This document shows positions 1 through 17,436 of a stretch of DNA of 28,281 bases, piece after piece. Position numbers and translations under genes: made by a program. The notes under the pieces are model-generated. The model searched no databases. It was given only the letters and a program-made list of their open reading frames with translations, and was not told the DNA's origin. This DNA comes from a virus. Numbering within the stretch: the first letter of the stretch is position 1; the number at the start of each line of letters is the position of its first letter. The stretch covers positions 1 through 28,281 of IMG/VR virus record IMGVR_UViG_3300004460_000008; one strand, given 5' to 3'.

Positions 1-120
1 TGGACAAAAGAAAAAGTACTAAATACATTTGATAATAACTTATCAATAACACTTCGGGAGCTTTCTCAGCTTTCGGGGTGGTCAGTCGTAGAGTTAAAAG
101 AAGCTCTCCTAAGTGATTAA
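1..120 (+). CDS. 3' end of an unidentified early protein (partial)
   Basis: The frame is open from the first base to a TAA at 118-120 and encodes the last 39 residues of a protein whose start lies outside the window. The tail contains LRELSQLSGWSVVELKEALL, which could be a small helix-turn-helix, but the fragment is too short to assign. The final codons lie inside the left arm of the first composite palindrome (110-181), as in other operons of this region. It is real coding sequence by composition and by its position at the head of a forward gene series. Confidence 0.55.
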   Translation, partial: WTKEKVLNTFDNNLSITLRELSQLSGWSVVELKEALLSD

Positions 121-181
121 CAGTCAAGCACTTAGGTGCCTGGCCGCCGAACCACGTAACTGCTTGGTTGTCAACGATTTA
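110..181. repeat. Composite palindrome copy 1 (72 bp)
   Basis: Two 25-bp dyads flank a 22-bp GC-rich core. Dyad 1 is TAAGT-N15-ACTTA (110-134). Dyad 2 is the degenerate TAACT-N15-ATTTA (157-181). The core contains GGCCGCC. The left arm overlaps the stop codon of the gene ending at 120. It belongs to a family of seven copies that all have the same 15-nt spacings. Confidence 0.85.
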
Positions 182-207
182 AAGATGCATTTAATTGAAG
201 TTTTTTC

Positions 208-236
208 TTGCTATTGTTGGGTAAGAGGCTTATTAT
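208..236 (+). promoter_or_regulatory. Sigma-70-like early promoter
   Basis: A -35 box TTGCTA (208-213) and a -10 box TATTAT (231-236) are separated by 17 bp. The ATG at 247 follows the -10 box by 10 nt, so the leader would be only a few bases. It drives the small genes at 247-722. Confidence 0.55.
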
Positions 237-246
237 GTATTATATT

Positions 247-375
247 ATGACAGACAACAACCAACAACTCGCAGGGAATGATTTACTCATGTATCTTATG
301 TCTCGATTCAACATGACAAAGCCTGAAGCTCTCAACTCAATGAGAAGAGCAGGACATAACACCTCTAACCTCTAA
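247..375 (+). CDS. Small hypothetical early protein, 42 aa
   Basis: The short ORF starts MTDNNQQLAGNDLLMYLM and contains SRFNMTKPEALNSMRRAGH, a helical segment that could be a small DNA- or protein-binding helix pair. There is an in-frame upstream ATG at 235, but it lies across the -10 box, so 247 is preferred. The gene is followed after 7 nt by the next ORF and sits directly behind a good promoter. No function can be assigned. Being so short, it rests on promoter position and tight packing with its neighbours. Confidence 0.55.
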   Translation: MTDNNQQLAGNDLLMYLMSRFNMTKPEALNSMRRAGHNTSNL

Positions 376-382
376 GAATATT

Positions 383-556
383 ATGACAAAAACAATAGAT
401 ATCACACCAACTTGGGCTTCCTTAGTTCTTCCTATGATTGAGGTTCTTAAAAACCCTAAAGCATCAAGAGAATCCAAAACCATGATTGCTGACGAATTTA
501 TTCGCCTTGCAAAGATCGTAGACGATCAAAACAGAAAGATAAAACAAAATGGATAA
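383..556 (+). CDS. Small hypothetical protein, 57 aa
   Basis: The product begins MTKTIDITPTWASLVLPMIE and ends in a helical, charged stretch (ADEFIRLAKIVDDQNRKI). The 'DITPTW...LP' opening followed by an amphipathic helix matches a type of small protein I have seen in phages and plasmids, without known function. It overlaps the next ORF by 8 nt, which suggests translational coupling in the 247-722 operon. Confidence 0.65.
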   Translation: MTKTIDITPTWASLVLPMIEVLKNPKASRESKTMIADEFIRLAKIVDDQNRKIKQNG

Positions 557-722
557 CTTTACTAAAAAAGAATTAAAAGCTATTTTTGATGTAGTTAATG
601 TTTATGAGCCCGAAGATATATCTCATGTATACCCTGAAATGGCAAGCGATGAATTTATGAAAGATGTCATATCCGCATGGAAGAAACTGTGCAAAATGCT
701 TGACACTAATAACAAAAACTGA
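549..722 (+). CDS. Small hypothetical protein, 57 aa
   Basis: The ORF starts inside the end of the preceding gene (8-nt overlap) and gives MDNFTKKELKAIFDVVNVYE, then an acidic middle and a lysine-rich end. It is predicted helical with no recognised domain. Its last codons contain the -35 box of the next promoter (TTGACA at 700-705), a compact arrangement repeated several times in this region. An ORF on the opposite strand here (573-755) is a shadow. Confidence 0.6.
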   Translation: MDNFTKKELKAIFDVVNVYEPEDISHVYPEMASDEFMKDVISAWKKLCKMLDTNNKN

Positions 723-728
723 GATAAT
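700..728 (+). promoter_or_regulatory. Leaderless early promoter for the 735 gene
   Basis: A perfect -35 TTGACA (700-705), a 17-bp spacer and a -10 GATAAT (723-728). The ATG at 735 begins exactly 6 nt after the -10 box, where transcription would start. The -35 box is embedded in the last codons of the preceding gene. Confidence 0.75.
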
Positions 729-734
729 ACTATT

Positions 735-1049
735 ATGCACGAAAAAGTACAACAACCCGTAAATTCCTACACCGAGTTTGAGAAGCTAGCGTGGGCATCA
801 GATCAAACCATACCTGCCGTAGGCTCAGAAGTTGATGTAAAAATCAATGGCATTGGCAGGTCGAAAGTTTTAAAGTATTTTGTGGAATATGGTTTCATTG
901 GATTAGTCGTCCAACCATTTGACCCACCTGCTTGGTATGTAAAGCAAAATGGGGCAGACGAGCCTTGTCATGTTTTCCCTTCTGAGACTGAAGAGCTTAG
1001 GGTTGAGAGTAAAGGCTTCTACGAGTCTTTACATAACAGTATGGCATAA
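735..1049 (+). CDS. Hypothetical phage protein, 104 aa
   Basis: This soluble protein has a central beta-rich stretch (VDVKINGIGRSKVLKYFVEY, then a GLVVQPFDPPAWY segment). The pattern resembles small phage accessory proteins I have seen before, but no function is known. It is read from its own promoter with the ATG 6 nt after the -10 box, so the mRNA is probably leaderless. The stop codon TAA (1047-1049) is also the first bases of composite palindrome copy 2. Confidence 0.8.
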   Translation: MHEKVQQPVNSYTEFEKLAWASDQTIPAVGSEVDVKINGIGRSKVLKYFVEYGFIGLVVQPFDPPAWYVKQNGADEPCHVFPSETEELRVESKGFYESLHNSMA

Positions 1050-1118
1050 ACCCCTAACTACCAAGCACTTAGGTGCCTGGCCGCCGAGCGACGCAACTGA
1101 CTGACCATCAGTAACTTG
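1047..1118. repeat. Composite palindrome copy 2 (72 bp)
   Basis: This is the most degenerate copy. The left half-site is TAAAC instead of TAAGT, followed by N15 and ACTTA (1067-1071). The right dyad is AACT-N15-ACTTG, ending at 1118. The core includes TGGCCGCC. It starts on the stop codon of the upstream gene and lies between that gene and the next promoter (1155). Confidence 0.8.
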
Positions 1119-1154
1119 CGTAACAACTTTTTTTCATTTTAATTCATTTTTTCC

Positions 1155-1183
1155 TTGTGTTATATTAAAAAATCGCTTATTGT
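1155..1183 (+). promoter_or_regulatory. Leaderless early promoter for the 1190 gene
   Basis: A -35 TTGTGT (1155-1160), 17 bp, and a -10 TATTGT (1178-1183); the ATG at 1190 is 6 nt downstream. A T-rich tract precedes the -35 box (CATTTTTTCC), as in the reverse-strand promoters at 5741 and 8141. Confidence 0.65.
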
Positions 1184-1189
1184 ATTTAT

Positions 1190-1546
1190 ATGATGACAAA
1201 ACAACAACTACTCGACTTCGACAATCTCGCTTTCCATACTCACCCTTCTTGCTCAGAGGGAATTATGGCTCAACTAAAGTTTGGCGACTTTATGATTTCT
1301 GTCGTTGCTAACACTGGAAATGGTCGTGGTCTTTATGGTCATGTTGACGATAATGAATATGAAGTTTTAATGACTTTTAAAGATGGAACAATTCCTCTTG
1401 CAGTATGTGGCGATGTTCTCGCAGGTCAATCTCCTGCTCAAATCAGTAGACACATGAGAGATGCTCAACTTAATGGATTTGTATGGGTTGACTTATTAAG
1501 AAAGATAAAATTAAACAACGACAAAGAATTAGGGCTTGACGACTAA
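1190..1546 (+). CDS. Hypothetical protein, 118 aa
   Basis: A small globular protein starting MMTKQQLLDFDNLAFHTHPS. The middle (FGDFMISVVANTGNGRGLYG) looks beta-rich and the C terminus is helical (AQISRHMRDAQLNG, then a lysine-rich end). No known family is recognised. The first of two adjacent ATG codons (1190) fits the 6-nt rule of its promoter; 1193 is possible. The -35 box of the next promoter lies in its last codons. Confidence 0.8.
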   Translation: MMTKQQLLDFDNLAFHTHPSCSEGIMAQLKFGDFMISVVANTGNGRGLYGHVDDNEYEVLMTFKDGTIPLAVCGDVLAGQSPAQISRHMRDAQLNGFVWVDLLRKIKLNNDKELGLDD

Positions 1547-1564
1547 TTACAACTAAACTATATT
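1536..1564 (+). promoter_or_regulatory. Leaderless early promoter for the 1571 gene
   Basis: A -35 TTGACG (1536-1541), 17 bp, and a -10 TATATT (1559-1564); the ATG at 1571 is 6 nt after the -10. The -35 overlaps the end of the previous gene. Confidence 0.75.
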
Positions 1565-1570
1565 AAAGAT

Positions 1571-1768
1571 ATGAAAATACAAATTGAAGATTATTACGGA
1601 AACGACATTTGTTCGTTTAAAGTTAACACTTTTGCAGACAACAATGGCTTGCAAGATATTGGTGATTTTGTGGATTGTAGTTATGCAGATATGGAAGTAG
1701 ACGAATATTCTGAGCCATATGTTCGCATACAATTAGAAAAAGAAGACTTGACATTATACTCAAACTAA
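1571..1768 (+). CDS. Small acidic hypothetical protein, 65 aa
   Basis: A small acidic protein (MKIQIEDYYGNDICSFKVNT; later YADMEVDEYSEPYVRIQLEK), probably an all-beta fold. It has no recognised family. It is transcribed from its own promoter and carries the -35 box of the next promoter in its last codons. Small acidic early phage proteins sometimes act as host-protein inhibitors, but nothing here shows that. Confidence 0.75.
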   Translation: MKIQIEDYYGNDICSFKVNTFADNNGLQDIGDFVDCSYADMEVDEYSEPYVRIQLEKEDLTLYSN

Positions 1769-1776
1769 ACTATATT
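1748..1776 (+). promoter_or_regulatory. Early promoter for the 1784 gene
   Basis: A -35 TTGACA (1748-1753), 17 bp, and a -10 TATATT (1771-1776); the ATG at 1784 follows after 7 nt. The string AACTAAACTATATTA around the -10 is shared with the promoter at 1536-1564, suggesting the two promoters are duplicates. Confidence 0.75.
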
Positions 1777-1783
1777 ATATATT

Positions 1784-2059
1784 ATGACACAACAACTAAC
1801 ATCAGATCAACGCATTTCGATCATTCGTCATGCTCATCAAAATTCCCAATCCATTTCCTCAGTTCAGTCTGTAGAAGACTTCGTTGCCGAGGTTAAGATG
1901 GAAGACATTGTTTGCGAGCATGGAGTTCTTAATGCTCAGAAGAATGACTTAGAAGACGAATCTCAATATCTATCTAGTGATTCAGCAGAAGAGATTGACG
2001 AAGAAGATCAAGACTTCGGAATCAGTGCTGAAATGCAAGAAGTACAAAAACAAAACTAA
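1784..2059 (+). CDS. Acidic hypothetical protein, 91 aa
   Basis: The protein starts MTQQLTSDQRISIIRHAHQN, a helical region. It then becomes strongly acidic and probably disordered (DLEDESQYLSSDSAEEIDEE). No family is recognised. It heads a three-gene unit with the 2073 and 2326 genes. The frame overlapping its end (from 1977) is only an upstream extension of the 2073 gene. Confidence 0.75.
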   Translation: MTQQLTSDQRISIIRHAHQNSQSISSVQSVEDFVAEVKMEDIVCEHGVLNAQKNDLEDESQYLSSDSAEEIDEEDQDFGISAEMQEVQKQN

Positions 2060-2072
2060 CAAAAGAAAAATT

Positions 2073-2321
2073 ATGCAATCAGAATTCTCATTCACCAATC
2101 AAGTAAAAGCAGTAGAGGCTTATAAGCCTTTGCAAGTAAATCGTCAAGGCAATAAAATGTGGTTCTCTTATAAGAACGCAGTCGGTACAATCGTTAACGC
2201 GTACTATGATTATGCGACTCGTTCGTTTAAATCAGTAGTTAAAGGCAGTCAGTACGGAGATGGAGTTGCGATTCGCAATCTTGTCGCTCGCCCTGTCGTA
2301 GAGTCCGTTTTAAAAGGATAA
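2073..2321 (+). CDS. Small basic hypothetical protein, 82 aa
   Basis: The frame is open from 1977, but that part overlaps the preceding gene, and the ATG at 2073 (MQSEFSFTNQVKAVEAYKPL) lies 13 nt after its stop. The middle, NKMWFSYKNAVGTIVNAYYD, suggests a small beta-sheet protein, followed by a basic segment (TRSFKSVVKGSQYG). Net basic, no family recognised. It is followed closely by a tiny membrane-peptide ORF. Confidence 0.7.
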   Translation: MQSEFSFTNQVKAVEAYKPLQVNRQGNKMWFSYKNAVGTIVNAYYDYATRSFKSVVKGSQYGDGVAIRNLVARPVVESVLKG

Positions 2322-2325
2322 GAAA

Positions 2326-2409
2326 ATGAGTTGGGATATACTTTTATTTTTACCTTGGGTTGGGGTTTTCTACATAATGTTTTCTGATCTATGGAATTAT
2401 CATTATTAA
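2326..2409 (+). CDS. 27-aa hydrophobic membrane peptide
   Basis: A short ORF MSWDILLFLPWVGVFYIMFS plus seven residues, a single predicted membrane span. An AAAGGA sequence 8 nt upstream is a convincing ribosome-binding site, which is rare in this region. It is the last forward gene before composite palindrome copy 3 and the convergent reverse block. It could be a small inner-membrane effector; function unknown. Confidence 0.5.
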   Translation: MSWDILLFLPWVGVFYIMFSDLWNYHY

Positions 2410-2467
2410 TTGTATTGTCGTTTGTTCTATTTTTCATTATTAGCTAAAGTCCTTTAAAACCTCGTCC

Positions 2468-2539
2468 TAAGTCTTTGTAGTTGAAGCACTTAGGGCGGGC
2501 GGCGGCCAGCCACCTAAGTGACTGAGATTCAACAACTTA
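2468..2539. repeat. Composite palindrome copy 3 (72 bp)
   Basis: Dyads TAAGT-N15-ACTTA at 2468-2492 and 2515-2539 around a 22-bp GC-rich core (GGCGGCGGCC). It sits where the forward and reverse gene blocks converge, and the stop codon of the reverse gene (2529-2531) lies inside the right dyad. Confidence 0.9.
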
Positions 2540-2780
2540 CAGAACCATTTAGTTCGTTTATAAGCTCGTTAAGTCTTGGGGTGTCAAGCCCCGAATCGTT
2601 CCAAGCCACACCATCGGGTGTTCGGTATCCAATTGAGGAGTCCCCGCTAGTGTCTTTAATGTCATCAACGAATTGTTGATAATTTTGGCAATCTCTTGCG
2701 AAGTGATAAAGCCCCTCATCGTTTTGAATCCAAAGGGCGACATTCCATGTCTGACGATTTTTCCATCCGTTATAACTCAT
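2529..2780 (-). CDS. Phage hypothetical protein with NGWKNRQTWN motif, 83 aa
   Basis: The product begins MSYNGWKNRQTWNVALWI. The N-terminal 'NGWKNxxTWNVxLWI' signature marks a family common in phages of aquatic and other bacteria, with no established function. I start it at 2780 because the family begins at this motif. The in-frame ATG at 2795 would overlap the upstream gene by 13 nt. It is the last gene of the operon read leftwards from 3201. Confidence 0.8.
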   Translation of the reverse strand: MSYNGWKNRQTWNVALWIQNDEGLYHFARDCQNYQQFVDDIKDTSGDSSIGYRTPDGVAWNDSGLDTPRLNELINELNGSVSC

Positions 2781-2782
2781 AA

Positions 2783-3019
2783 TTATTTTTCCCATTCGTT
2801 AGAGACTTGTATCCAATAGCAGATATTAGATGAGTCTTGGTTAATCTCTTCAGCTTGGCTAGTAATCACACCTTTTTTTACGAGAGAGCTAACTACCCCA
2901 CTGAGTTCTTTGCCTTCAAAAGGTGCGATCTCGTGGAGCCAACCTTCGTTTGGTGCGTCCATTCCTTCTTGAAAAGCTTCGAGTGCAATTTTTTCTTTTT
3001 CTGTAAGTTCCATAATCAT
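2783..3019 (-). CDS. Small hypothetical protein, 78 aa
   Basis: The sequence (ELTEKEKIALEAFQEGMDAP, then LSGVVSSLVKKGVITSQAEE) has the layout of a winged-helix-like domain: helices, a 'VxSLVKKGVI' recognition-like helix and a beta end. A DNA-binding role is possible but unproven. The ATG at 3019 overlaps the TAA of the upstream gene; a second ATG at 3013 is equally plausible. Middle gene of the 3201-to-2529 operon. Confidence 0.75.
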   Translation of the reverse strand: MIMELTEKEKIALEAFQEGMDAPNEGWLHEIAPFEGKELSGVVSSLVKKGVITSQAEEINQDSSNICYWIQVSNEWEK

Positions 3020-3201
3020 TATACTAGGCAGTTTAAAATTGCGAGTTCATCAATTTTTTCCATATTTCGTTCTATTTCCATTTCAGCATTAATTACTAAT
3101 TGGCGAGAACGAGTATTACCTAAGTCGGCATATTCGGATTCTGAATCAATAATTTGCTGAAGGGCGTTAATATTTTCGTGAAGTTGTTTTAATGTTATCA
3201 T
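3019..3201 (-). CDS. Small helical hypothetical protein, 60 aa
   Basis: The protein (MITLKQLHENINALQQIIDS, then VINAEMEIERNMEKIDELAI) is predicted to be a helical hairpin or coiled coil. No family is recognised. It is the first gene of a three-gene leftward operon, and its ATG sits exactly 6 nt after a perfect promoter. Its TAA overlaps the next start codon. Confidence 0.75.
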   Translation of the reverse strand: MITLKQLHENINALQQIIDSESEYADLGNTRSRQLVINAEMEIERNMEKIDELAILNCLV

Positions 3202-3207
3202 TTTATA

Positions 3208-3236
3208 ATTATCTTATATTTATTCCTCTGTGTCAA
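3208..3236 (-). promoter_or_regulatory. Leaderless early promoter for the 3201 gene
   Basis: Read leftwards: -35 TTGACA (3231-3236), 17 bp, -10 GATAAT (3208-3213), then 6 nt to the ATG at 3201. The -35 lies in the final codons of the 3220-3399 gene. Confidence 0.75.
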
Positions 3237-3399
3237 GGATATTACCAAGGAAATTTACTTTATTTATTTCGTAACCTTTAGCTTCTGACTTTGCAATTCT
3301 TAAAGCTTTCGCTTGACCTCTTACTTCATCAACTAACCTACCAAAGGAAAAGATTTGAAAAAATTGTACAAAGTTTGGGTTTCGTCTTACTGATATCAT
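3220..3399 (-). CDS. Small paralogous early protein, 59 aa (copy A)
   Basis: The ORF encodes MISVRRNPNFVQFFQIFSFG, then RLVDEVRGQAKALRIAKSEA. It is clearly related to the gene at 5932-6126, sharing the pattern MIS(V/I)-x3-N-x-NF-x3-F-x-I-x2-FG-(R/K)-L-(V/I)-D and an ALR-(I/V)-A segment. The gene at 4837-4992 is a more distant relative. The ATG is 1 nt after the stop of the upstream gene (3401-3625), so translation is probably coupled. Function unknown. Confidence 0.75.
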   Translation of the reverse strand: MISVRRNPNFVQFFQIFSFGRLVDEVRGQAKALRIAKSEAKGYEINKVNFLGNILDTEE

Positions 3400-3400
3400 A

Positions 3401-3625
3401 TTAACTCCATTTTAGGTTTTTTAGACTTGTGTATTTTTTTAACCATCTGCGTAAGTGATGGAAACCATTACTTGACCAATGATTAGCAAAAGGGTCAATC
3501 TTATTATCGATTAATACAACTTTGTATCCGTTTGCAGTTTCGATAATGTTCTTGATTTCTTTGCATTTTTTCATCTGTTTGAATACTTTACGATTTTCTT
3601 TACCCGAATGTCCTCCTTTAGCCAT
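3401..3625 (-). CDS. Small basic hypothetical protein, 74 aa
   Basis: A lysine-rich N terminus (MAKGGHSGKENRKVFKQMKK) precedes a compact domain with VVLIDNKIDPFANHW and HHLRRWLKKY. This gene has the clearest Shine-Dalgarno of the region: AAGGAG 9 nt before the ATG, in contrast to the leaderless first genes of operons. It is therefore an internal gene of the 3759-to-3220 operon. No family is recognised. Confidence 0.75.
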   Translation of the reverse strand: MAKGGHSGKENRKVFKQMKKCKEIKNIIETANGYKVVLIDNKIDPFANHWSSNGFHHLRRWLKKYTSLKNLKWS

Positions 3626-3642
3626 AATATTTTTCTCCTTGT

Positions 3643-3759
3643 TTAGAATGAGAGAGCTTGCTTATGCTTAACTCTGCGTGAATATTTAGACTTATCCTTC
3701 ATTGGTCGAGCCTTTGTGAAAAGAATTGGGATTCTTGCTTTGATCTTTTTTGTTTTCAT
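3643..3759 (-). CDS. 38-aa strongly basic peptide
   Basis: The ORF MKTKKIKARIPILFTKARPM plus 18 residues is rich in Lys and Arg (KDKSKYSRRVKHK). Tiny basic proteins of this 'KARxPxxxxxRPxKxKxxYxR' style occur in many phages and may bind nucleic acid or the ribosome, but none is assigned here. The ATG is again 6 nt after a plausible -10 box. It heads the operon running to 3220. Confidence 0.6.
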   Translation of the reverse strand: MKTKKIKARIPILFTKARPMKDKSKYSRRVKHKQALSF

Positions 3760-3765
3760 ATATAA

Positions 3766-3794
3766 AGACTAAGGCACTTACCAAGTAATAGCGA
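3766..3794 (-). promoter_or_regulatory. Probable leaderless promoter for the 3759 gene
   Basis: Read leftwards: -35 TCGCTA (3789-3794), 17 bp, -10 TAGTCT (3766-3771), 6 nt, ATG. The -35 is weak, but the spacings match the stronger promoters exactly and the 4632 promoter has a similar TCGCAA. Confidence 0.45.
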
Positions 3795-3919
3795 GAAAAA
3801 AATTCACTAAATACAACTTTTAAATCTATCTAATAATAATTGATAAGGGGGGCTAATAAATAGGAACAAATACATAATACTATAAATACATTGACTTATA
3901 CTATATAAAAGCTTTATTG

Positions 3920-3990
3920 TAAGTTATTGATTATCAAGCACTTACGGAATCGGCGGCCGCCCGCCTAAGTGCCTAACTATCAGCGACTTA
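3920..3990. repeat. Composite palindrome copy 4 (71 bp)
   Basis: Dyads TAAGT-N15-ACTTA at 3920-3944 and 3966-3990 flank a 21-bp core containing the 8-bp palindrome GCGGCCGC. It lies in the 272-base gap between the operon ending at 4032 and the gene starting at 3759. The rest of that gap is AT-rich and shows no other convincing gene. Confidence 0.9.
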
Positions 3991-4031
3991 GGGGATTGAC
4001 TTATTTTACTATTTAATTATTATACAAAGTT

Positions 4032-4361
4032 TTAGTAGCAAGAAGAATAGTCAACTTTGCAAGAGGTTTCGTCAAGTTCAAATTCTTCATCTTTAAGTAT
4101 TTTTTTGACTCTTTCAACTTCATCAAGCTTGATAAAGTCAACTTTTTTACCATTTAAGTCGAAAGCTTCAACTTGTTCAACTTTTTCAAAGTATCCAATT
4201 AATGAAATTGAAGAGACTTGATCTCCCCAAAGGTTTTCAATTTCGTCAGTCCATAAAGAGCAAGTCAATTCGATATAAGATCCGTCTTCGTCCGAGTAAG
4301 AACAAGTCAAGGTTTCTTCGTCTATTTCGTAAAGCTCAAAAGCAGCATCTAAATTTTTCAT
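4032..4361 (-). CDS. Acidic hypothetical protein, 109 aa
   Basis: A strongly acidic protein (MKNLDAAFELYEIDEETLTC, then YSDEDGSYIELTCSLW) with alternating polar/hydrophobic strands and a helical C-terminal third (DEVERVKKILKDEEFELDE). It ends in a cysteine-containing tail (CKVDYSSCY). No family is recognised. It is the second gene of the 4632 operon, 13 nt behind the preceding stop. Confidence 0.75.
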   Translation of the reverse strand: MKNLDAAFELYEIDEETLTCSYSDEDGSYIELTCSLWTDEIENLWGDQVSSISLIGYFEKVEQVEAFDLNGKKVDFIKLDEVERVKKILKDEEFELDETSCKVDYSSCY

Positions 4362-4374
4362 AGTTATTTTTTCC

Positions 4375-4632
4375 TTATAGTTTTTCGGTCAACATTTCTT
4401 CGCGAACAGCTTTATTTGCAATAGTAACCATCTCTTCCATCCAATCATTGACATTTTCAATTGAGGTCATTCCGTTTTTTCTGATATCGTGACTAACCGA
4501 GAATTTTATTGATCTTGCCAAAGTAGCAACTTCTAAAAGAGCTTTTGATAAATTATAAGCCTTTTCGTTCTTATATGCGTTATTGTCGATCACATCAAAG
4601 AGTGAGATTTTGTCTGTAGTATTATTTTCCAT
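4375..4632 (-). CDS. Helical hypothetical protein, 85 aa
   Basis: The product starts MENNTTDKISLFDVIDNNAY and is predicted mostly helical (YNLSKALLEVATLARSIKF, then VNDWMEEMVTIANKAVREEM). No family is recognised. It is the first gene of a two-gene leftward operon with its own promoter, the ATG 6 nt behind the -10 box. Confidence 0.75.
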   Translation of the reverse strand: MENNTTDKISLFDVIDNNAYKNEKAYNLSKALLEVATLARSIKFSVSHDIRKNGMTSIENVNDWMEEMVTIANKAVREEMLTEKL

Positions 4633-4638
4633 ATATAT

Positions 4639-4667
4639 AAAGTAAACTATGTTTTAATTAATTGCGA
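4639..4667 (-). promoter_or_regulatory. Leaderless early promoter for the 4632 gene
   Basis: Read leftwards: -35 TCGCAA (4662-4667), 17 bp, -10 TACTTT (4639-4644), 6 nt, ATG at 4632. The boxes are weaker than average, but the geometry is the standard one for this region. Confidence 0.55.
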
Positions 4668-4679
4668 ATTTTATTTTAG

Positions 4680-4823
4680 TTATTTTATTGCTTGCTCAAT
4701 CATTTCAAAACTCCACACATGACCACCGAGACACTCCCAAAGGTCAAAGGATTCAGTCATAGGACTTGCTTGGATACGAACAAGGTTATTATCTTGAATG
4801 AATTTTTTCATTTCTTCTGTCAT
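4680..4823 (-). CDS. Small hypothetical protein, 47 aa
   Basis: The ORF MTEEMKKFIQDNNLVRIQAS continues with PMTESFDLWECLGGHVWSFE and ends in a short helix. It begins 13 nt after the stop of the upstream gene (4837-4992), the same gap seen between the 4375 and 4032 genes, so it is probably the second gene of that operon. The 'LWECLGGHVWS' stretch is distinctive but unknown to me. Confidence 0.6.
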   Translation of the reverse strand: MTEEMKKFIQDNNLVRIQASPMTESFDLWECLGGHVWSFEMIEQAIK

Positions 4824-4836
4824 TATATTTTTTTCT

Positions 4837-4992
4837 TTAGTTATTTTCTAGTAAAAGGAAAGAGCTTGTAATTTTAATTCCATGGCTTTGAGCTTCCTTG
4901 AAAGAATCAAATGATCCTGCGTAACTGCTTCCGATATATAAATCGAAAACGACATTTGACCAAGTGGCGAGAGATTTAATCTTAATGACCAT
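4837..4992 (-). CDS. Small paralogous early protein, 51 aa (copy C, divergent)
   Basis: I start the gene at the internal ATG at 4992 (MVIKIKSLATWSNVVFDLYI), because an upstream ATG at 5019 lies inside the promoter spacer. From 4992 the ATG falls exactly 6 nt after the -10 box. The layout (FD-x-(Y/R)-x-x-G-x-x-x-x-(S/N)-x-x-x-EAQ) resembles the 5932-6126 product, and more weakly the 3220-3399 product, so it may be a third family member. Function unknown. Confidence 0.7.
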   Translation of the reverse strand: MVIKIKSLATWSNVVFDLYIGSSYAGSFDSFKEAQSHGIKITSSFLLLENN

Positions 4993-4998
4993 ATATAG

Positions 4999-5027
4999 AA
5001 TATAAAGGCTAAGAGTCATTAAGTCAA
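4999..5027 (-). promoter_or_regulatory. Leaderless early promoter for the 4992 gene
   Basis: Read leftwards: -35 TTGACT (5022-5027), 17 bp, -10 TATATT (4999-5004), 6 nt, ATG at 4992. This geometry decides the start codon of the downstream gene. Confidence 0.75.
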
Positions 5028-5069
5028 GGCATTAGCGTTTTATTTTAAAGAAAGTTTTAACAAATTAAA

Positions 5070-5158
5070 TTGTATAAGTTATATAAATTTATAAACTATA
5101 CTTTTATTATTTATATAATGTATAAGAGTTATATTTATTTAATGTATAAAAGTTAGAT
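5070..5158. repeat. AT-rich short direct repeats beside palindrome copy 5
   Basis: Two near-identical 15-mers, AATGTATAAGAGTTA (5117-5131) and AATGTATAAAAGTTA (5141-5155), lie 24 bp apart start to start. A related TTGTATAAGTTATA lies near 5071. The stretch is almost pure A/T and non-coding, between the 4992 promoter and palindrome copy 5. Confidence 0.5.
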
Positions 5159-5185
5159 TGGCATAGTATGTGAACAGGCACTTCG

Positions 5186-5256
5186 TAAGTCATTGAGTAC
5201 CAAACACTTACGAGGGCGGCGGCCGCGCTCCTAAGTGCCTGAGGAGCAACAACTTA
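5186..5256. repeat. Composite palindrome copy 5 (71 bp)
   Basis: Dyads TAAGT-N15-ACTTA at 5186-5210 and 5232-5256 around a 21-bp core containing GCGGCCGC. It ends 4 bases from the stop codon of the gene at 5260-5409. The flank (AGATTGGCAT at 5155-5164) is shared with copy 6, so the homology extends leftwards. Confidence 0.9.
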
Positions 5257-5259
5257 CGG

Positions 5260-5409
5260 CTAGGCTGTAAACAAGCCGTATCGACGGGTACCGTCACTGT
5301 TTGCGATGCGACGACGCAAGAGCTTTTCAGCATCTTTTTTTCGCATTGCGATTGTTTCGACTTTCCAAACGGATCCCGCTTGATTGAGAATTGATTTTAG
5401 AATTAGCAT
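5260..5409 (-). CDS. Small basic hypothetical protein, 49 aa
   Basis: The ORF MLILKSILNQAGSVWKVETI continues with AMRKKDAEKLLRRRIANSDG and ends RRYGLFTA. It is a basic helix with a short beta end, possibly nucleic-acid binding. GC-richer codons (CGT, CGC, GTC) indicate real coding. It is the second gene of the 5695 operon, with the next palindrome copy directly behind its stop. Confidence 0.65.
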   Translation of the reverse strand: MLILKSILNQAGSVWKVETIAMRKKDAEKLLRRRIANSDGTRRYGLFTA

Positions 5410-5479
5410 AATTTTTGTTGTTAACTTTGTTTGTGATAGAGAAAGAAAGAGTGAGTTTATTTTATGTTAGTGTTAAAGC

Positions 5480-5695
5480 TTAAGCGAATTCGGAGATACC
5501 GATTGCTTCGATTCTGAAATCGTTAACGGTTTCGAGATACGCTTCGCGTTCTGCGTGTTCTTCGGATCCTTCCTCCATATTCATTAAGGAAAGACGAGCA
5601 AGGGTAAACTCGTGGTTCAACTCGGCAAGTGTTAGAGCTTGGAGTACCAAGTCAGCGTTAGGATTAGAGGCGAATTTAGGTTGTGATAATTTCAT
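5480..5695 (-). CDS. Helical hypothetical protein, 71 aa
   Basis: I start at the ATG at 5695 (MKLSQPKFASNPNADLVLQA). The ATG at 5746 would begin on the -35 box of the promoter. The product is a helical hairpin (LTLAELNHEFTLARLSLMN, then EEHAEREAYLETVNDFRIEA). No family is recognised. Here the leader is short but not absent (about 15-18 nt). It heads a two-gene leftward operon with 5260-5409. Confidence 0.75.
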   Translation of the reverse strand: MKLSQPKFASNPNADLVLQALTLAELNHEFTLARLSLMNMEEGSEEHAEREAYLETVNDFRIEAIGISEFA

Positions 5696-5718
5696 AATGT
5701 TTAATTTACTATATATAC

Positions 5719-5786
5719 AATCTAACACATTTCGACCAAAACACAAGGAAAAAGCGAAAAAAGATTCAACTATCTTTATGCACTAT
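5719..5786 (-). promoter_or_regulatory. Early promoter for 5695 with conserved upstream element
   Basis: Read leftwards: ATAGTGCAT (5778-5786), then a T-rich tract, -35 TTGTGT (5741-5746), 16 bp, -10 TAGATT (5719-5724). The GTGCA begins exactly 37 nt before the -35 box, as in the promoters at 6929 and 8118. About 45 bp upstream of the -35 is nearly identical to the 8118 promoter. Confidence 0.65.
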
Positions 5787-5827
5787 ACTACTGCATAGAT
5801 TGGCATGGTATCTGTACGAGTCTTTTG

Positions 5828-5898
5828 TAAGTTGTTGTTTATTAGGTACTTATGGAAGCGGCGGCCGCCCGCCTAAGTGCCTGACTATCAGCGACTTG
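5828..5898. repeat. Composite palindrome copy 6 (71 bp)
   Basis: Dyads TAAGT-N15-ACTTA (5828-5852) and TAAGT-N15-ACTTG (5874-5898) flank a 21-bp core with GCGGCCGC. The element is enclosed by longer inverted arms: ATACTACTGCATAG (5785-5798) pairs with a TAGCGTAGTAGTAT-type arm at about 5909-5922. A roughly 135-bp stem with interruptions is therefore possible. Confidence 0.9.
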
Positions 5899-5931
5899 CG
5901 AGGCTATGTAGCGTAGTAGTATAAGATAAAA

Positions 5932-6126
5932 CTACAGAGTATTACGACAATCAAGATCTTTTTCTGTTATAATTGTGACCTTTTCGCCCTTAGAGTATAG
6001 CTCTTTCTTTTTCATATTAGCAACTCTTAAAGCTTGAGCTTCTGTCTTTGTGTTATCAATCAATTTGCCGAAAAGTCTAATGTCGAACCATTCGGAAAAG
6101 TTTACGTTTTTTATTATTGAGATCAT
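5932..6126 (-). CDS. Small paralogous early protein, 64 aa (copy B)
   Basis: The product MISIIKNVNFSEWFDIRLFG, then KLIDNTKTEAQALRVANMKK, is the closest relative of the 3220-3399 product, sharing MIS, NF, FG-x-L, D and ALR-x-A positions. After this domain it has a unique tail (VTIITEKDLDCRNTL). It is a single-gene transcription unit with a strong promoter and palindrome copy 6 behind it. Function unknown. Confidence 0.8.
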   Translation of the reverse strand: MISIIKNVNFSEWFDIRLFGKLIDNTKTEAQALRVANMKKKELYSKGEKVTIITEKDLDCRNTL

Positions 6127-6132
6127 ATTTAT

Positions 6133-6161
6133 AATGTAAAGCCTTATTTACTTATTGTCAA
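6133..6161 (-). promoter_or_regulatory. Leaderless early promoter for the 6126 gene
   Basis: Read leftwards: -35 TTGACA (6156-6161), 17 bp, -10 TACATT (6133-6138), 6 nt, ATG at 6126. It lies in the gap just behind the 6165 gene. Confidence 0.75.
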
Positions 6162-6164
6162 GGG

Positions 6165-6425
6165 TTATTTCACGAAGATTTGATTAATGTATTTTGTGGC
6201 TTGCTTGTCATGTCCGAGCGTTACCTTTGATTGAAGATTGTTGGCAATCTTGTTTATTTTTGTTCTTGCTTCGTTTTTGTTTTCAGCTTGAACTTCGATT
6301 ACATTGTTAGTCATTACCGAGTTAATGAATGTATTAGTGTTAGTATTAAACAAAGGAAGTTTTGAATCATCGTTTGAATAGATGTGAACATTACCTGTGA
6401 AAGTTTTAGTTTTAGTATTTATCAT
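6165..6425 (-). CDS. Hypothetical protein, 86 aa
   Basis: The product begins MINTKTKTFTGNVHIYSNDD. It is rich in Asn and Thr, with an alpha/beta pattern: strands, then ENKNEARTKINKIANNLQSK as a long helix. The Asn/Thr-rich middle (NTNTNTFINSVMTNN) may be a flexible loop. No family is recognised. It has its own leaderless promoter. Confidence 0.75.
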   Translation of the reverse strand: MINTKTKTFTGNVHIYSNDDSKLPLFNTNTNTFINSVMTNNVIEVQAENKNEARTKINKIANNLQSKVTLGHDKQATKYINQIFVK

Positions 6426-6431
6426 ATTATT

Positions 6432-6460
6432 AATCTAGTGGATTATTAGGCAAAAGTCAA
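6432..6460 (-). promoter_or_regulatory. Leaderless early promoter for the 6425 gene
   Basis: Read leftwards: -35 TTGACT (6455-6460), 17 bp, -10 TAGATT (6432-6437), 6 nt, ATG at 6425. Confidence 0.75.
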
Positions 6461-6485
6461 ACTTTATTTTACTTTTTTTTTCTTA

Positions 6486-6674
6486 TTATTGAAAGACGAC
6501 ATTAAAGCGAAATTGATTTAGACCTTCGTCTCTCATAATCTTATCAAGATGTGATTGACTCGATGCAGTGCGAACCCGTGGGCGATCATTGCCCTGTGAG
6601 TCGATGCCTTGATCGAAGATCTTTACTGATGTATGGGTTGACCATTTTTTTATTATAACTTGTATTTTATTCAT
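6486..6674 (-). CDS. Small hypothetical protein, 62 aa
   Basis: The frame is open to 6737, but the part before the ATG at 6674 overlaps the upstream gene. I therefore start at 6674 (MNKIQVIIKKWSTHTSVKIF), 20 nt behind the upstream stop. The product looks like a small beta-alpha domain with a conserved-looking RVRTASSQSHLDKIM segment. Function unknown. Second gene of the 6879 operon. Confidence 0.7.
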   Translation of the reverse strand: MNKIQVIIKKWSTHTSVKIFDQGIDSQGNDRPRVRTASSQSHLDKIMRDEGLNQFRFNVVFQ

Positions 6675-6693
6675 ATTATTTATTTTTAAAAAA

Positions 6694-6879
6694 TTAAGCA
6701 TTACGCTCCATTGATCTAAAACCCACTCTTTCTTCAAGCTCGATCATTTCGGCATTGTGCAAATGAAGTTTCCACTCTTTGAGATCTTTCTCAAGTCGGG
6801 CGATTTCTAAGGAATCGGTAGCGTTACGGATGTCCGTTTCAGTTTCTATGATACGGAATTTTATTGATGTTGGACTCAT
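6694..6879 (-). CDS. Small coiled-coil protein, 61 aa
   Basis: Almost the whole protein (MSPTSIKFRIIETETDIRNA, then SLEIARLEKDLKEWKLHLHN) has heptad-like spacing of Ile/Leu, so a helical coiled coil is likely. It ends in a basic tail (RVGFRSMERNA). It is the first gene of a two-gene operon. Its promoter lies farther upstream than usual, leaving an A/T-rich leader of about 43 nt. Confidence 0.75.
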   Translation of the reverse strand: MSPTSIKFRIIETETDIRNATDSLEIARLEKDLKEWKLHLHNAEMIELEERVGFRSMERNA

Positions 6880-6928
6880 ATTTTTATTTTGTTATTTTTT
6901 AAAGTGTTTTAATTAATCTTATATATAC

Positions 6929-6997
6929 AATGTAGCACCAAGGGCGACTAATTGCAAGTTTTTTCTCACTTACCTTTCAACTATGTTTTTGCACAAT
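6929..6997 (-). promoter_or_regulatory. Early promoter for 6879 with conserved upstream element
   Basis: Read leftwards: ATTGTGCAA (6989-6997), 37 nt from GTGCA to the -35 TTGCAA (6952-6957), 17 bp, -10 TACATT (6929-6934). An ATAGTTGAA string inside the upstream region is shared with the 5719 promoter at the same distance. The 440-base gap 6880-7319 also holds palindrome copy 7, further TTGCACTAT-type motifs and a terminator, but no gene. Confidence 0.65.
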
Positions 6998-7094
6998 GCT
7001 ATTGAGCGAGCGAGTTATAGTGCAAACTTTAAAGCTGTACTATTCAACTGCAAGGCAGTTTGATGAGTTACTTTTTTAGTGATCACACCCCTCG

Positions 7095-7165
7095 TAAGTC
7101 GTTGTTTACCAAACACTTATGGAAGCGGCGGCCGCCCGCGTAAGTGCCTGACTATCAGTGACTTA
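7095..7165. repeat. Composite palindrome copy 7 (71 bp)
   Basis: Dyads TAAGT-N15-ACTTA at 7095-7119 and 7141-7165 around a 21-bp core with GCGGCCGC. It lies between the terminator of the 8111-7320 genes and the promoter of the 6879 operon. Together with copy 6 it is the best-conserved member. Confidence 0.9.
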
Positions 7166-7227
7166 GGGAGGTATTTTGGTAGTGACTACTATTTTCTTGC
7201 ACTATGCTCTTGTGACTTATTCGGGCA

Positions 7228-7260
7228 TAAAAAAGCCCTATCCAATTAGTCGGATAAGGC
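7228..7260 (-). terminator. Rho-independent terminator of the 7843-7320 operon
   Basis: Read leftwards: GCCTTATCC, an 8-nt loop, GGATAGGGC (one G-T wobble), then TTTTTT (7229-7234). It stands about 60 bases behind the stop at 7320. It is the only conventional terminator in the early region, where other operons end only in a composite palindrome. Confidence 0.8.
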
Positions 7261-7319
7261 AAGTTTATTAGGTTATGAGTTGTAGTAGTATAGTGCAACA
7301 CTTAAGAGCATTAAGACAA

Positions 7320-7616
7320 TCATACACCTACCTCCTCGGTAACACTTATCCAATCGAATGAATCAATTTCTTGATTGTTTAGCATAGGAACAAAGTTGGA
7401 TTGATGAATGCCTAATCCTGTTATGCCATTGACTCTTTCTCTTGTGGTCGGAGTGTTCCAACCTGCAAGCGTTGCCATAACTAGTCCCGAAGGGTCACGC
7501 TTGACAATTTCGTTGCCATGAAGAAAAACGCTTGTGCCGTTTGTCCTTGTGTTGCCTATTTTTAAAGATGTGCCTTGTTCAAAGGCTTTTTTAATTTGTT
7601 GTGTGACTTTTCTCAT
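7320..7616 (-). CDS. Conserved phage hypothetical protein, 98 aa
   Basis: The product starts MRKVTQQIKKAFEQGTSLKI, then has NTRTNGTSVFLHGNEI, GWNTPTTRERVNGI and GIHQSNFVPMLNNQEI. This arrangement (N-terminal helix, 'GNTxTxGxxxxLHGNxI', 'GWxTPTTxERxNG', 'IHQ') matches a widespread small phage/plasmid protein family of unknown function. It lies 11 nt behind the 7628 gene and is followed by the only intrinsic terminator of the early block. Confidence 0.85.
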   Translation of the reverse strand: MRKVTQQIKKAFEQGTSLKIGNTRTNGTSVFLHGNEIVKRDPSGLVMATLAGWNTPTTRERVNGITGLGIHQSNFVPMLNNQEIDSFDWISVTEEVGV

Positions 7617-7627
7617 GATTTTATAGG

Positions 7628-7843
7628 TTAACGGCTAAAGTAAGAAGCGACTTGATCAGAGGTTGCTTTACCAAGATCAGAGGCATAAACTTCTGATTGG
7701 AACAAGTGATCCTGTCCGTGGTGTTTGATAGTAGCAACTTTAAGACCACCCTTGATCCTGTCAAGTGAGACAAGTCTCACGGCTTTATTATTTTGTGAGG
7801 AGTGATAAATTCCTCCGACTTTTAATCCTTTTTCAATTTTCAT
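7628..7843 (-). CDS. Small SH3-like hypothetical protein, 71 aa
   Basis: The sequence (MKIEKGLKVGGIYHSSQNNK, then AVRLVSLDRIKGGLKVATIK) is beta-rich, with the KVGGIYHS-type turn of small SH3/KOW-like barrels. Such domains may bind nucleic acid or protein; the role is unknown. It heads a two-gene operon with 7320-7616. The ATG lies 9 nt behind the -10 box. Confidence 0.75.
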   Translation of the reverse strand: MKIEKGLKVGGIYHSSQNNKAVRLVSLDRIKGGLKVATIKHHGQDHLFQSEVYASDLGKATSDQVASYFSR

Positions 7844-7852
7844 TATATGTAT

Positions 7853-7881
7853 ATACTAAGCTAGTTTTTCTGTGGTGTCAA
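7853..7881 (-). promoter_or_regulatory. Early promoter for the 7843 gene
   Basis: Read leftwards: -35 TTGACA (7876-7881), 17 bp, -10 TAGTAT (7853-7858), then 9 nt to the ATG at 7843. Confidence 0.75.
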
Positions 7882-7883
7882 GG

Positions 7884-8111
7884 TTATTTAACTTTATTTA
7901 ACTTTATTTCTTGGAAAGCTTTTCTTGCTTTTTGCACTGCGTTTAACGCATCGAGAATTGTTATGCCTTGCGTAATTGTACCCTGCCAATCGGATGAATT
8001 TGATTCACGGGCTAAGTGGTTTAAGTTTCCCTCTGCCTTAGCTAATGCCAAGCCAAGGTCGAGATCTAAATCCAATTCGTATCTTGTTTGTTCTAATGTA
8101 TTCTTTATCAT
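7884..8111 (-). CDS. Small helical hypothetical protein, 75 aa
   Basis: The product (MIKNTLEQTRYELDLDLDLG, then ALAKAEGNLNHLARESNSSD) is helical with a central polar linker, and its second helix (LDALNAVQKARKAFQEIKL) is amphipathic. A helical hairpin is likely. No family is recognised. It is the first reverse-strand gene next to the divergent spacer and has a leaderless promoter. Confidence 0.75.
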   Translation of the reverse strand: MIKNTLEQTRYELDLDLDLGLALAKAEGNLNHLARESNSSDWQGTITQGITILDALNAVQKARKAFQEIKLNKVK

Positions 8112-8117
8112 ATATAC

Positions 8118-8186
8118 AATGTAAGGTATTTTTTACCGAAACACAAGGAAAAAGTGAAAAAAGATTCGTTTATTTTATTGCACTAT
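8118..8186 (-). promoter_or_regulatory. Leaderless early promoter for 8111 with conserved upstream element
   Basis: Read leftwards: ATAGTGCAA (8178-8186), 37 nt from GTGCA to the -35 TTGTGT (8141-8146), 17 bp, -10 TACATT (8118-8123), 6 nt, ATG. The T-rich block between the motif and the -35 is nearly identical to that of the 5719 promoter. Confidence 0.65.
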
Positions 8187-8247
8187 CCCTCCCCCGTTTT
8201 TTGAATTTTTTAGAGTAGGACTACTGCTGATATCGGCGGGGGGTGGG
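8187..8247. other. GC-rich inverted arms in the divergent early/late spacer
   Basis: CCCTCCCCCG (8187-8196) faces CGGGGGGTGGG (8237-8247) across about 40 bp, in a genome that is otherwise AT-rich. This is the boundary between leftward small genes and rightward replication/structural genes. It could be a structured regulatory site or an origin-linked element. No gene is seen between 8112 and 8341. Confidence 0.45.
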
Positions 8248-8328
8248 TTTTCTCAAAATCTGAGACGCTTGATTCCTAGGGAAATATATGTTTTTTAAAA
8301 AAAAATCAGGACATTAGCAAAAACAACT

Positions 8329-8336
8329 GTATATAT
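8329..8336 (+). promoter_or_regulatory. Candidate late promoter box TGTATATA
   Basis: TGTATATA begins 13 nt before the ATG at 8342 and is followed by AAGTA directly before the start codon. There is no TTGACA-like -35. Similar boxes precede the genes at 15355, 17437 and 18172. Confidence 0.4.
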
Positions 8337-8341
8337 AAGTA

Positions 8342-9070
8342 ATGCCAAAACGAAAAAGAGCTGACATACAAGACGCTCAGGAAATAGAAAAAATTATTAC
8401 TTCTTTAGAAAAGACTAAAGTAAAATTAAAGAAAATCGACTTCTCCGATAAGCAGCAAGAACTGCTCAGGATAATGTTTGATAAGAGTACGAAGGTGGTA
8501 TTCATAAGTGGGCCTGCAGGAACAAGCAAGACATTTATGGCCATCTATGGCGCGCTACAATTGTTCAACATGGATAATAAATACAGCATTAGCTATATTA
8601 GAACTATAATAGAAAGCGCTGACAGAGGGATGGGGTCATTGCCTGGAAATATCGATGAAAAATTTGATCCATTTATGATGCCTTTAAACGACAAGTTGTT
8701 TGAGCTGATGTCGGCGTCTGACGCCAGAGCACTAACCGATCAAAGCACTATATCAGCTATACCTATCAACTATCTTAGAGGGGCTAGCCTTAATGATCAG
8801 ATAGTAATTGCTGACGAGTCTCAAAACTTCAGCGTAAAAGAATTAATTACTCTTATAACAAGAATAGGAGAAAACACAAAGATGTTTATCTGTGGCGATG
8901 CAATGCAAAGTGATATCAACGGCAAAAGCGGATTTAATAAAATTAAGCAGTTATTTAATGATGATGATAGCGCTAAACAAGGAATACACAATTTCGAATT
9001 CACTTATAAAGATATAAAAAGAAGTGAAATATTAAAATATATAGTTAAAAGACTAGAAGAGTTGAATTAA
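8342..9070 (+). CDS. phoH: PhoH-family P-loop ATPase
   Basis: The protein (242 aa) shows the PhoH pattern: Walker A GPAGTSKT (57-64), Walker B with ADESQN (157-162), sensor-like CGDAMQSD (184-191) and an arginine in DIKRSEIL (224-231). PhoH-like proteins are P-loop ATPases, some of which act as RNA helicases or in RNA turnover. They are very common in aquatic phages, where their role is unsettled. The N-terminal 30 residues are basic and charged, an extension before the ATPase core. It is the first rightward gene after the divergent spacer. Confidence 0.9.
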   Translation: MPKRKRADIQDAQEIEKIITSLEKTKVKLKKIDFSDKQQELLRIMFDKSTKVVFISGPAGTSKTFMAIYGALQLFNMDNKYSISYIRTIIESADRGMGSLPGNIDEKFDPFMMPLNDKLFELMSASDARALTDQSTISAIPINYLRGASLNDQIVIADESQNFSVKELITLITRIGENTKMFICGDAMQSDINGKSGFNKIKQLFNDDDSAKQGIHNFEFTYKDIKRSEILKYIVKRLEELN

Positions 9071-9089
9071 TAAAAGTGTATTACATGAT

Positions 9090-9284
9090 ATGAACGAAGG
9101 CGATCATATTATATTCTTATTCGATAACAAAAGAACATCAGGGACAATAATTAAGATCTTCACTCAAATAGGTTTCGAGGATCACGGTAAAAAGTTTGTA
9201 ATTATTATGCCTATTGATTCTAAGGGTTTATTTAACGATGATGCAATTAAGATAGAAAAGAATAAATTAAAAATAATTAATTGA
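9090..9284 (+). CDS. Small hypothetical protein, 64 aa
   Basis: A beta-rich sequence (MNEGDHIIFLFDNKRTSGTI, then a GFEDHGKKFVIIMPIDSKG stretch) looks like a small SH3-like barrel, followed by a lysine-rich end. No family is recognised. It sits 19 nt behind phoH and 33 nt before the thioredoxin gene, and is probably cotranscribed with phoH. The function cannot be stated. Confidence 0.7.
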   Translation: MNEGDHIIFLFDNKRTSGTIIKIFTQIGFEDHGKKFVIIMPIDSKGLFNDDAIKIEKNKLKIIN

Positions 9285-9317
9285 ATTAACTAACACTTAT
9301 TATATAATAATAAGTAT

Positions 9318-9563
9318 ATGAAAAAGTTAAAATATTTTACAGCTAGTTGGTGCGGACCATGTAGGAACTTTAAGCCGTATATACTTGAGCTCGTTAAGAG
9401 TGGAGAGAATATAGAAATGGTTGATATAGACGCTAACCCAAAAGAAAGTGAAAAATATCAAATAATGTCAGTTCCAACATTAATCTTTGAAGATGACGGG
9501 AAAATCTTTGCGAAGGTTAACGGGCCTATAGACCCAAGTGAAATAAAAGAGATTCTCAAATAA
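9318..9563 (+). CDS. Thioredoxin/glutaredoxin-like protein
   Basis: The 81-residue protein carries the active site WCGPC (W11-C15) after the first strand, and the cis-proline motif SVPT (51-54). It then ends in a short strand-helix (KVNGPIDPSEIKEIL). It is shorter than typical bacterial thioredoxin (about 105 aa) but complete in its key residues. Such phage thioredoxins reduce disulfides, often for ribonucleotide reductase or as polymerase cofactors. Neither partner is in this window. An ATAAGTATATG sequence at its start resembles other late starts. Confidence 0.9.
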   Translation: MKKLKYFTASWCGPCRNFKPYILELVKSGENIEMVDIDANPKESEKYQIMSVPTLIFEDDGKIFAKVNGPIDPSEIKEILK

Positions 9564-9564
9564 G

Positions 9565-9798
9565 ATGGAAATAGTAATATCTTCCCTAGTCGGCGCTGTA
9601 GGAGCTATATTGGTTGCTTATATTAATTCTAAATTTAAAGAGAAGAAGAAAGAAGCTCTAGTAGATGAAATAACAAAAAAATTACACATAGACGGTGAAA
9701 ATGTGTACATAATAAATACTAAAAAAAATGAAATTAAAAATTTTAAGTATGAATCTAAAGCTTCAACTGAAAAACCTTTAATCTTCTTTATTAAATAA
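9565..9798 (+). CDS. Membrane-anchored small protein, 77 aa
   Basis: A single N-terminal membrane span (MEIVISSLVGAVGAILVAYI) is followed by a lysine-rich stretch (NSKFKEKKK) and a small soluble domain. By the positive-inside rule the C terminus lies in the cytoplasm. The start is 1 nt after the thioredoxin stop, and the stop overlaps the ATG of the zinc-ribbon gene by 1 nt, so the three are translationally coupled. Function unknown; a membrane tether for the neighbouring redox protein is only a guess. Confidence 0.75.
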   Translation: MEIVISSLVGAVGAILVAYINSKFKEKKKEALVDEITKKLHIDGENVYIINTKKNEIKNFKYESKASTEKPLIFFIK

Positions 9799-10088
9799 TG
9801 AGAATTAAATATTGTAAATCATGCGGTCATAAAAACCAGTTTATAGGGCTGGAGCCGAAGTTTTGTTCGCATTGTGGGGAAAGCTTAAACGTAGTAACTC
9901 CTCAAAGCGCAAGATCTAAAATTGCCAGTAAGCAGAAACTTAACCCCGACGAAACAGATGTTGATTTCGTCCCTAGTATAGCTAGCTTGCAGTATAGCGT
10001 ATCTCCATTCGAAAAGAAAACTTTTAAGATGGAAGAGATTTTTGATCTTGAGGATAATGACAGAAGCCCCCAAAAGAAAAAGAGGTAG
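9798..10088 (+). CDS. Zinc-ribbon protein, 96 aa
   Basis: Two CxxC pairs, CKSC (C6, C9) and CSHC (C23, C26), form a classical zinc ribbon in the first 30 residues (YCKSCGHKN, then FCSHCGES). The rest is charged and probably flexible, with a conserved-looking VPSIASLQYSVSPFEKKTF segment. Zinc ribbons of this sort bind nucleic acid or protein, often in transcription complexes. Its end overlaps the start of the sigma-like gene by 32 nt, so the two are probably coexpressed and may act together. Confidence 0.8.
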   Translation: MRIKYCKSCGHKNQFIGLEPKFCSHCGESLNVVTPQSARSKIASKQKLNPDETDVDFVPSIASLQYSVSPFEKKTFKMEEIFDLEDNDRSPQKKKR

Positions 10089-15311: not shown

Positions 15312-15339
15312 CTTTAAAAGTGACATTTTAACTTTTTCG

Positions 15340-15347
15340 TGTATAAT
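15340..15347 (+). promoter_or_regulatory. Candidate late promoter box TGTATAAT
   Basis: TGTATAAT begins 15 nt before the portal ATG and is followed by ATAAGTA. A GTGACA 16 bp upstream of TATAAT may serve as a weak -35. It shares its pattern with 8329, 17424 and 18156. Confidence 0.45.
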
Positions 15348-17431: not shown

Positions 17432-17436
17432 TATGC

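Follow-up and report, generated by a model that had tools for sequence, protein, structure and literature searches.

A four-half-site DNA element at operon ends as a putative boundary of exchangeable gene cassettes in uncultivated tailed phages

We describe a repeated composite palindrome in the virus record IMGVR_UViG_3300004460_000008, an entire IMG/VR record of 28,281 bp (the window), where seven copies stand among the small genes of an accessory array, and trace it through a group of uncultivated tailed phages. The element consists of two inverted pairs of half-sites (dyads), 25 bp each and of the form TAAGT-N15-ACTTA, around a G/C-rich core. Each site lies between the 3′ end (or terminator) of one operon and the next promoter, or between convergent 3′ ends; whole operons between such sites come and go and change their order, and some sites are chimeric, with a crossover within the element itself. 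We see about an even chance that the element marks, as DNA, the limits of the small transcription units of an accessory region that undergoes shuffling, resembling in function the promoter-early stem-loop (PeSL) cassettes of T4-type phages, with a new architecture that is read by a protein.

The seven composite sites, which have no strand, fall within an accessory cassette array (1..8111) of small genes that run on the plus strand up to site 3 and on the minus strand beyond it. They are site 1 (110..181; two half-site mismatches in the right dyad), site 2 (1047..1118), whose first TAA is the stop codon of the ORF 735-1049, site 3 (2468..2539), which lies between convergent operons and contains the stop of the minus-strand ORF 2529-2795, site 4 (3920..3990) behind the minus-strand operon 4032-4992, site 5 (5186..5256) behind a minus-strand ORF of 49 aa (about 5260-5409, as read from the frame), site 6 (5828..5898) behind the minus-strand operon 5932-6879, and site 7 (7095..7165), which follows the minus-strand operon 7320-8111 and stands about 70 bp past the intrinsic terminator of that operon. 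An earlier note on the window had listed these seven starts, the overlap with stop codons, a 15-nt spacing in both dyads of every copy and a core of 21-22 bp; all of this is borne out, with measured gaps of 22, 22, 22, 21, 21, 21 and 21 bp, as are its observations that GCGGCCGC occurs in four copies and that copy 2 is degenerate, being the worst of the seven with five mismatches. TAAGT/ACTTA is exact in 22 of the 28 half-sites. Composites with at most three mismatches were found seven times in the real window (a count from which copy 2 is missing and to which one overlapping, offset match contributes) vs none in 60 first-order Markov resamples of it.

The consensus over about 1,550 half-sites is TAAGTNNTTG, namely TAAGT, C or G at positions 6 and 7, and then TTG; the half-site does extend past TAAGT/ACTTA, as had been proposed. 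An unguided search over all 5-mer dyads recovered TAAGT/N15, at the expected gap, as the best or nearly the best dyad in four site-bearing genomes used as positive controls. The core has a length typical of each virus (15-19, 21-24, 25 or 27-28 bp), and 270 of 292 sites keep the modal gap of their own locus. The half-site arms do not covary as base pairs: among 142 non-redundant sites of gap class 28 the strongest mutual-information pairs are not between half-sites, and in most gap classes bases that could pair are, at position 7, even rarer than expected. An RNA structure formed by the arms was accordingly rejected after several covariation tests, none of them positive, and Rfam gave no match above its gathering score. 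Within the core, pairing covaries in class 17 (0.773 vs 0.584 with partners swapped) and weakly in class 25; it does not in the large class 28 (0.547 vs 0.549 swapped). The structured RNA 3′ end that the earlier note had also entertained is thus not supported. The conserved identity of the half-sites, their fixed spacing and the lack of arm covariation together suggest that the site is read as protein-bound DNA rather than as RNA, in agreement with that note's protein-binding array or insulator at operon ends. A helical phasing between the dyads was considered and rejected on arithmetic alone, as the centre distances of 40-53 bp are not all full turns. A single site with a gap of 25 at L212 1352-1426, in a genome otherwise of gap 18, has dyads and core that form near-perfect hairpins.

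The sites are confined to one array of about 5-20 kb per sampled genome. All exact dyads fall within a single 5-19 kb stretch in G013 (15/15; 118-137 kb of 223 kb), G020 (10/10; 105-116 kb of 170 kb) and G012 (7/7), as do 12 of 13 in G011 (85-93 kb of 113 kb). Genes from the two flanks of the array point towards each other; almost every operon is followed by a site, and the place where the directions meet usually has one too. The codirectional context dominates among 388 distinct sites, 32 being convergent and 9 divergent; these contexts derive from gene calls by a simple coding-potential caller written for this analysis and may be wrong in single cases. Only one of about 150 copies is intragenic, and the spacing reported for the window persists in relatives; neither of the two outcomes that the earlier note had named as refuting it was therefore seen. 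The TAA of the site is itself the stop codon in 31 of 378 cases, and tRNA genes can abut it as well (in L110 a tRNA-Tyr ends at 6674 and the site begins at 6675). A strong sigma70-like promoter follows the site at no more than 150 bp in 172 of 326 cases, against 4 upstream and 5 after shuffling, and the distance to its -35 box peaks at 15-45 bp past the site. Promoter-like sequences, matched by consensus only, occur in the window after site 1 (208..236, plus strand) and in the cassette between sites 4 and 5 (4999..5027, minus strand).

Such a position would also suit a transcription terminator or mRNA 3′-end structure peculiar to these phages: the sites stand at operon 3′ ends, convergent ones included, in gap classes 17 and 25 the G/C-rich core shows hairpin covariation, and 135 of 303 sites come within 20 nt of a stop codon with no other terminator seen. 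We hold this to be improbable. When tested as an intrinsic terminator (a GC hairpin followed by a U-tract) the site fails, since a U-tract terminator is present at the site itself in only 13 of 303 cases, which upholds the earlier statement that it is no plain terminator. Separate intrinsic terminators precede many sites (43 of 69 where the gap between gene and site is 60-150 bp, vs 17 after shuffling), which argues that the site is not simply the terminator; in the window an ordinary U-tract terminator (7235..7260, minus strand) follows the operon end, with site 7 some 70 bp farther on and hence not the sole 3′ signal there. Moreover, neither the arms nor the class-28 core covary, and other operon ends of the same genomes, among those inspected, are without the element. 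Sites behind a terminator and sites abutting a stop are equally conserved (1.04 vs 1.24 mismatches).

Rather more remote is an operator through which a phage regulator, either an activator or a silencer, would govern every unit of the array (cf. L5 stoperators). The conserved, protein-type half-sites 15-45 bp upstream of a -35 box and the restriction of the sites to one gene region would fit such a role, which is nevertheless quite unlikely, as there is no promoter to be controlled at convergent sites and most divergent promoters are without a site.

The same operons (gene-family strings F11-F3, F0-F1, F4-F23-F24 and F5-F14-F10-F20) recur as site-bounded units, in differing order and strand, across gap classes. 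Of 1000 comparisons of neighbouring genes from one cassette, 736 found the two sharing a cassette elsewhere too; for neighbours separated by a site the figure was 41 of 271. Stretches of nucleotide homology end preferentially at site edges, with an enrichment of about 2-4 fold. Individual events can be read directly: L116 holds a site, 883 bp and a second site where L284 holds a single chimeric site, and L194, L095 and L259 differ from L170 by a clean cassette indel with an overlap of 75 bp, the length of a site. Further clean events separate L155/L281 from L187, L010 from L266, L179 from L184 and L211 from L093. Chimeric sites with a single switch (L116/L284, L211/L093 and L194/L170) place the three mapped crossovers at the border of core and right dyad, in the left dyad and in mid-core, so that crossovers do not all happen at one point. 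Inserts of a second kind sit directly against the 5′ edge of a site (L110 vs L146, and L140 vs L104 at 97% identity).

Clean gain and loss of cassettes with one site duplicated invites comparison with a dedicated site-specific system, akin to integron attC arrays or pdif modules, in which an unrecognised recombinase of phage or host binds the four half-sites. The 10-bp arms, the spacer of about 5 bp and the paired dyads resemble recombinase core sites; the sites are confined to the array, stop codons and tRNA ends directly abut them, and the same plan recurs with other half-sites in G106. Against this, the crossover point differs among the three events, the spacers are not identical among sites, and searches of the phage contigs, which leave a host enzyme outside their scope, found a tyrosine recombinase over the cut-off in 0 of 47, a serine recombinase in 1 of 40 and a Y1 transposase in 0 of 40, whereby a phage-encoded enzyme of these three kinds was rejected as a common feature. 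On balance we regard the site-specific system as possible though clearly less probable than the boundary proposed above.

Comparisons with known systems delimit the element further. PeSLs of T4-type phages, said to have been described by Arbiol (2010) and Comeau (2014), reportedly combine a boundary element with a promoter and are linked to modular shuffling. They share with the present element the pairing of a boundary with a sigma70-like promoter between small accessory genes, the repetition within a genome, the confinement to variable regions and the tie to shuffling. When the PeSL features were examined one by one, the downstream promoter (in the proportion given above) and the variable, shuffling region were found; a stem-loop acting as an intrinsic terminator was not, in view of the rarity of U-tracts, the lack of arm covariation and the frequently separate terminator. 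For this reason we do not file the element as a PeSL. It differs from them in its two protein-type dyads with four half-sites at fixed spacing and no U-tract terminator, and in being carried by uncultivated phages whose isolated relatives are all remote. By this comparison its function appears most like that of PeSLs, with an architecture that would be new, much as the earlier note had supposed. PeSLs of T4-type phages are cited in PMC4503421.

Clusters of attC sites without an integrase have been described in phages (PMC9892861), and in these too each cassette ends, on its 3′ side, in a site; inverted core-site pairs surround a variable middle, and the arrays have no integrase of their own. 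However, the cassettes described here carry promoters and point both ways towards one meeting site, and the half-sites give no pairing signal, which does not favour recombination of a folded single strand; membership in attC was rejected, RYYYAAC/GTTRRRY boxes being present in 0 of 388 sites (shuffled mean 0.8). In Acinetobacter plasmids, small gene modules are shuffled at pdif/dif sites (PMC13141974), inverted-arm sites of about 28 bp that separate the modules, whereas the present element has two dyads and a core per site and pdif has one. Membership in pdif was likewise rejected, because the best-mismatch distribution for the XerC/XerD core ATAA-N6-TTATGTTAA was close to that of shuffled sequence. 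We therefore treat attC clusters and dif modules as analogues and not as families containing this element. REP/BIME elements are also repeated extragenic palindromes behind genes, unlike which the present one has four half-sites, strict spacing and a distribution restricted to viruses, with no RAYT-type Y1 transposase among the 40 contigs.

The plan persists with other recognition letters. L296 (G106) carries over about 1-17500, behind operons and about 1 kb apart, elements in which AGCCC-N11-GGGCT dyads flank about 30 bp of G/C-rich core, and AGCCC-type dyads occur in a handful of other IMG/VR contigs, some of them relatives of G106; at least one site of G073 has TAAAC inner halves. In L295 (G090), an array of homologous genes has at its operon ends, the convergence included, a short repeated hairpin, GGCACGAAATCG-GCAGG-CGATTT (at 10155, 11277, 12598, 14547, 16148 and 18568), exact copies of which were detected in just two IMG/VR contigs. 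The contigs of G084, G112 and G113, which may be incomplete, yielded no element of this kind. Position and plan that persist while the letters vary would fit a co-evolving trans-acting factor. More speculatively, the element might belong to a hitherto undescribed, virus-specific system of cassette exchange. The paired TAAGTNNTTG dyads, with the G/C-rich core between them, would then be recognised by a recombinase of unrecognised type or by a protein that bridges DNA, and lineages would evolve new core lengths or entirely new half-sites (AGCCC in G106) with the plan kept; to this we give a low but real probability.

A scan of IMG/VR with the pattern TAAGT-N15-ACTTA-N16..30-TAAGT-N15-ACTTA returned at least 119 matching stretches, and four for the reversed pattern; the pattern recurs in 66 of the 68 contigs fetched, where the reversed control gave zero. 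Only 5 of 84,980 GTDB species genomes match, mostly in short contigs of metagenome-assembled genomes (MAGs) that resemble the same phages (L212, L209 and L211). These three, assigned to Flavobacteriaceae, Rhodobacteraceae and Alphaproteobacteria, have the look of phage pieces caught up in the binning, and host-borne sites were rejected since the dyad is near control levels in the MAG genomes outside viral-looking contigs. A lone perfect composite (L208 2140-2211; gap 22, AT-rich core) stands on a Candidatus Entotheonella chromosome of 60% GC, apparently between convergent genes. No known isolate with the site was recovered by blastn using two sites, and our literature search found no description of a TAAGT inverted-repeat element.

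The carriers are a group of uncultivated tailed phages with contigs of up to about 240 kb, which have in common terminase, portal, major capsid, PhoH-like and sigma-like proteins. Their nearest isolates, none T4-type by name, are remote at about 22-27% identity (a Clostridioides phage and Microcystis phage MaeS for the terminase, which matches phrog_2 weakly, and Bacillus Stahl-type phages for the portal), and the capsid protein has no match. In the portal tree the 21-24-bp gap classes mostly cluster, with G007 apart, and the branch that bears G013 and G025 is very long.

In the window, the sigma-like protein (10042-10788, plus strand), kept in nearly all genomes of the group, has weak matches to Sigma70 region 2 and region 4. 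Conserved proteins of no assigned function are encoded at 10785-11834. A protein with an N-terminal C2H2-like zinc finger (12505-13446, plus strand) is encoded directly upstream of the terminase, and its relative in G011 (L258 14328-15245) resembles an ERCC4-type nuclease by eye. The minus-strand array genes include small paralogous proteins of about 60 aa (3220-3399 and 5932-6126), which recur in several cassettes per array, a DUF7249 protein (2529-2780) and a Kyano_Gp96 protein (7320-7616); the latter two families have marine cyanophage relatives, and DUF7249 is also found in Escherichia phages.

In the boundary model two protein dimers, or a tetramer that bridges the core, would bind the four TAAGTNNTTG half-sites at the DNA level and so isolate neighbouring transcription units; the repeated copies may double as junctions for cassette exchange, probably through homology-driven recombination, because the crossover position varies. 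Several points weigh against this model. The insulation between units is something we infer; linkage within operons is kept in any genome, so that the modularity ratio is partly expected; no protein family tracks the sites in blastp or HMM clusters, from which no candidate binder or recombinase emerged; and gap classes 17, 25 and 28 each occur in separate lineages of the portal tree, hence lineage is not a full explanation of the gap. Overall, the interpretation offered in the earlier note is partly supported; it did not mention the confinement to a single array in each genome, the downstream promoter, the gap classes, the turnover and shuffling of cassettes or the limitation to viruses.

Small phage genes of unknown function turn over fast, and their exchange units and junctions are seldom visible. 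Here both are marked in the sequence and can be found by a simple pattern, whereby cassette turnover becomes directly countable and the accessory modules of uncultivated phages can be delimited. The element also points to a predicted DNA-binding protein in these viruses.

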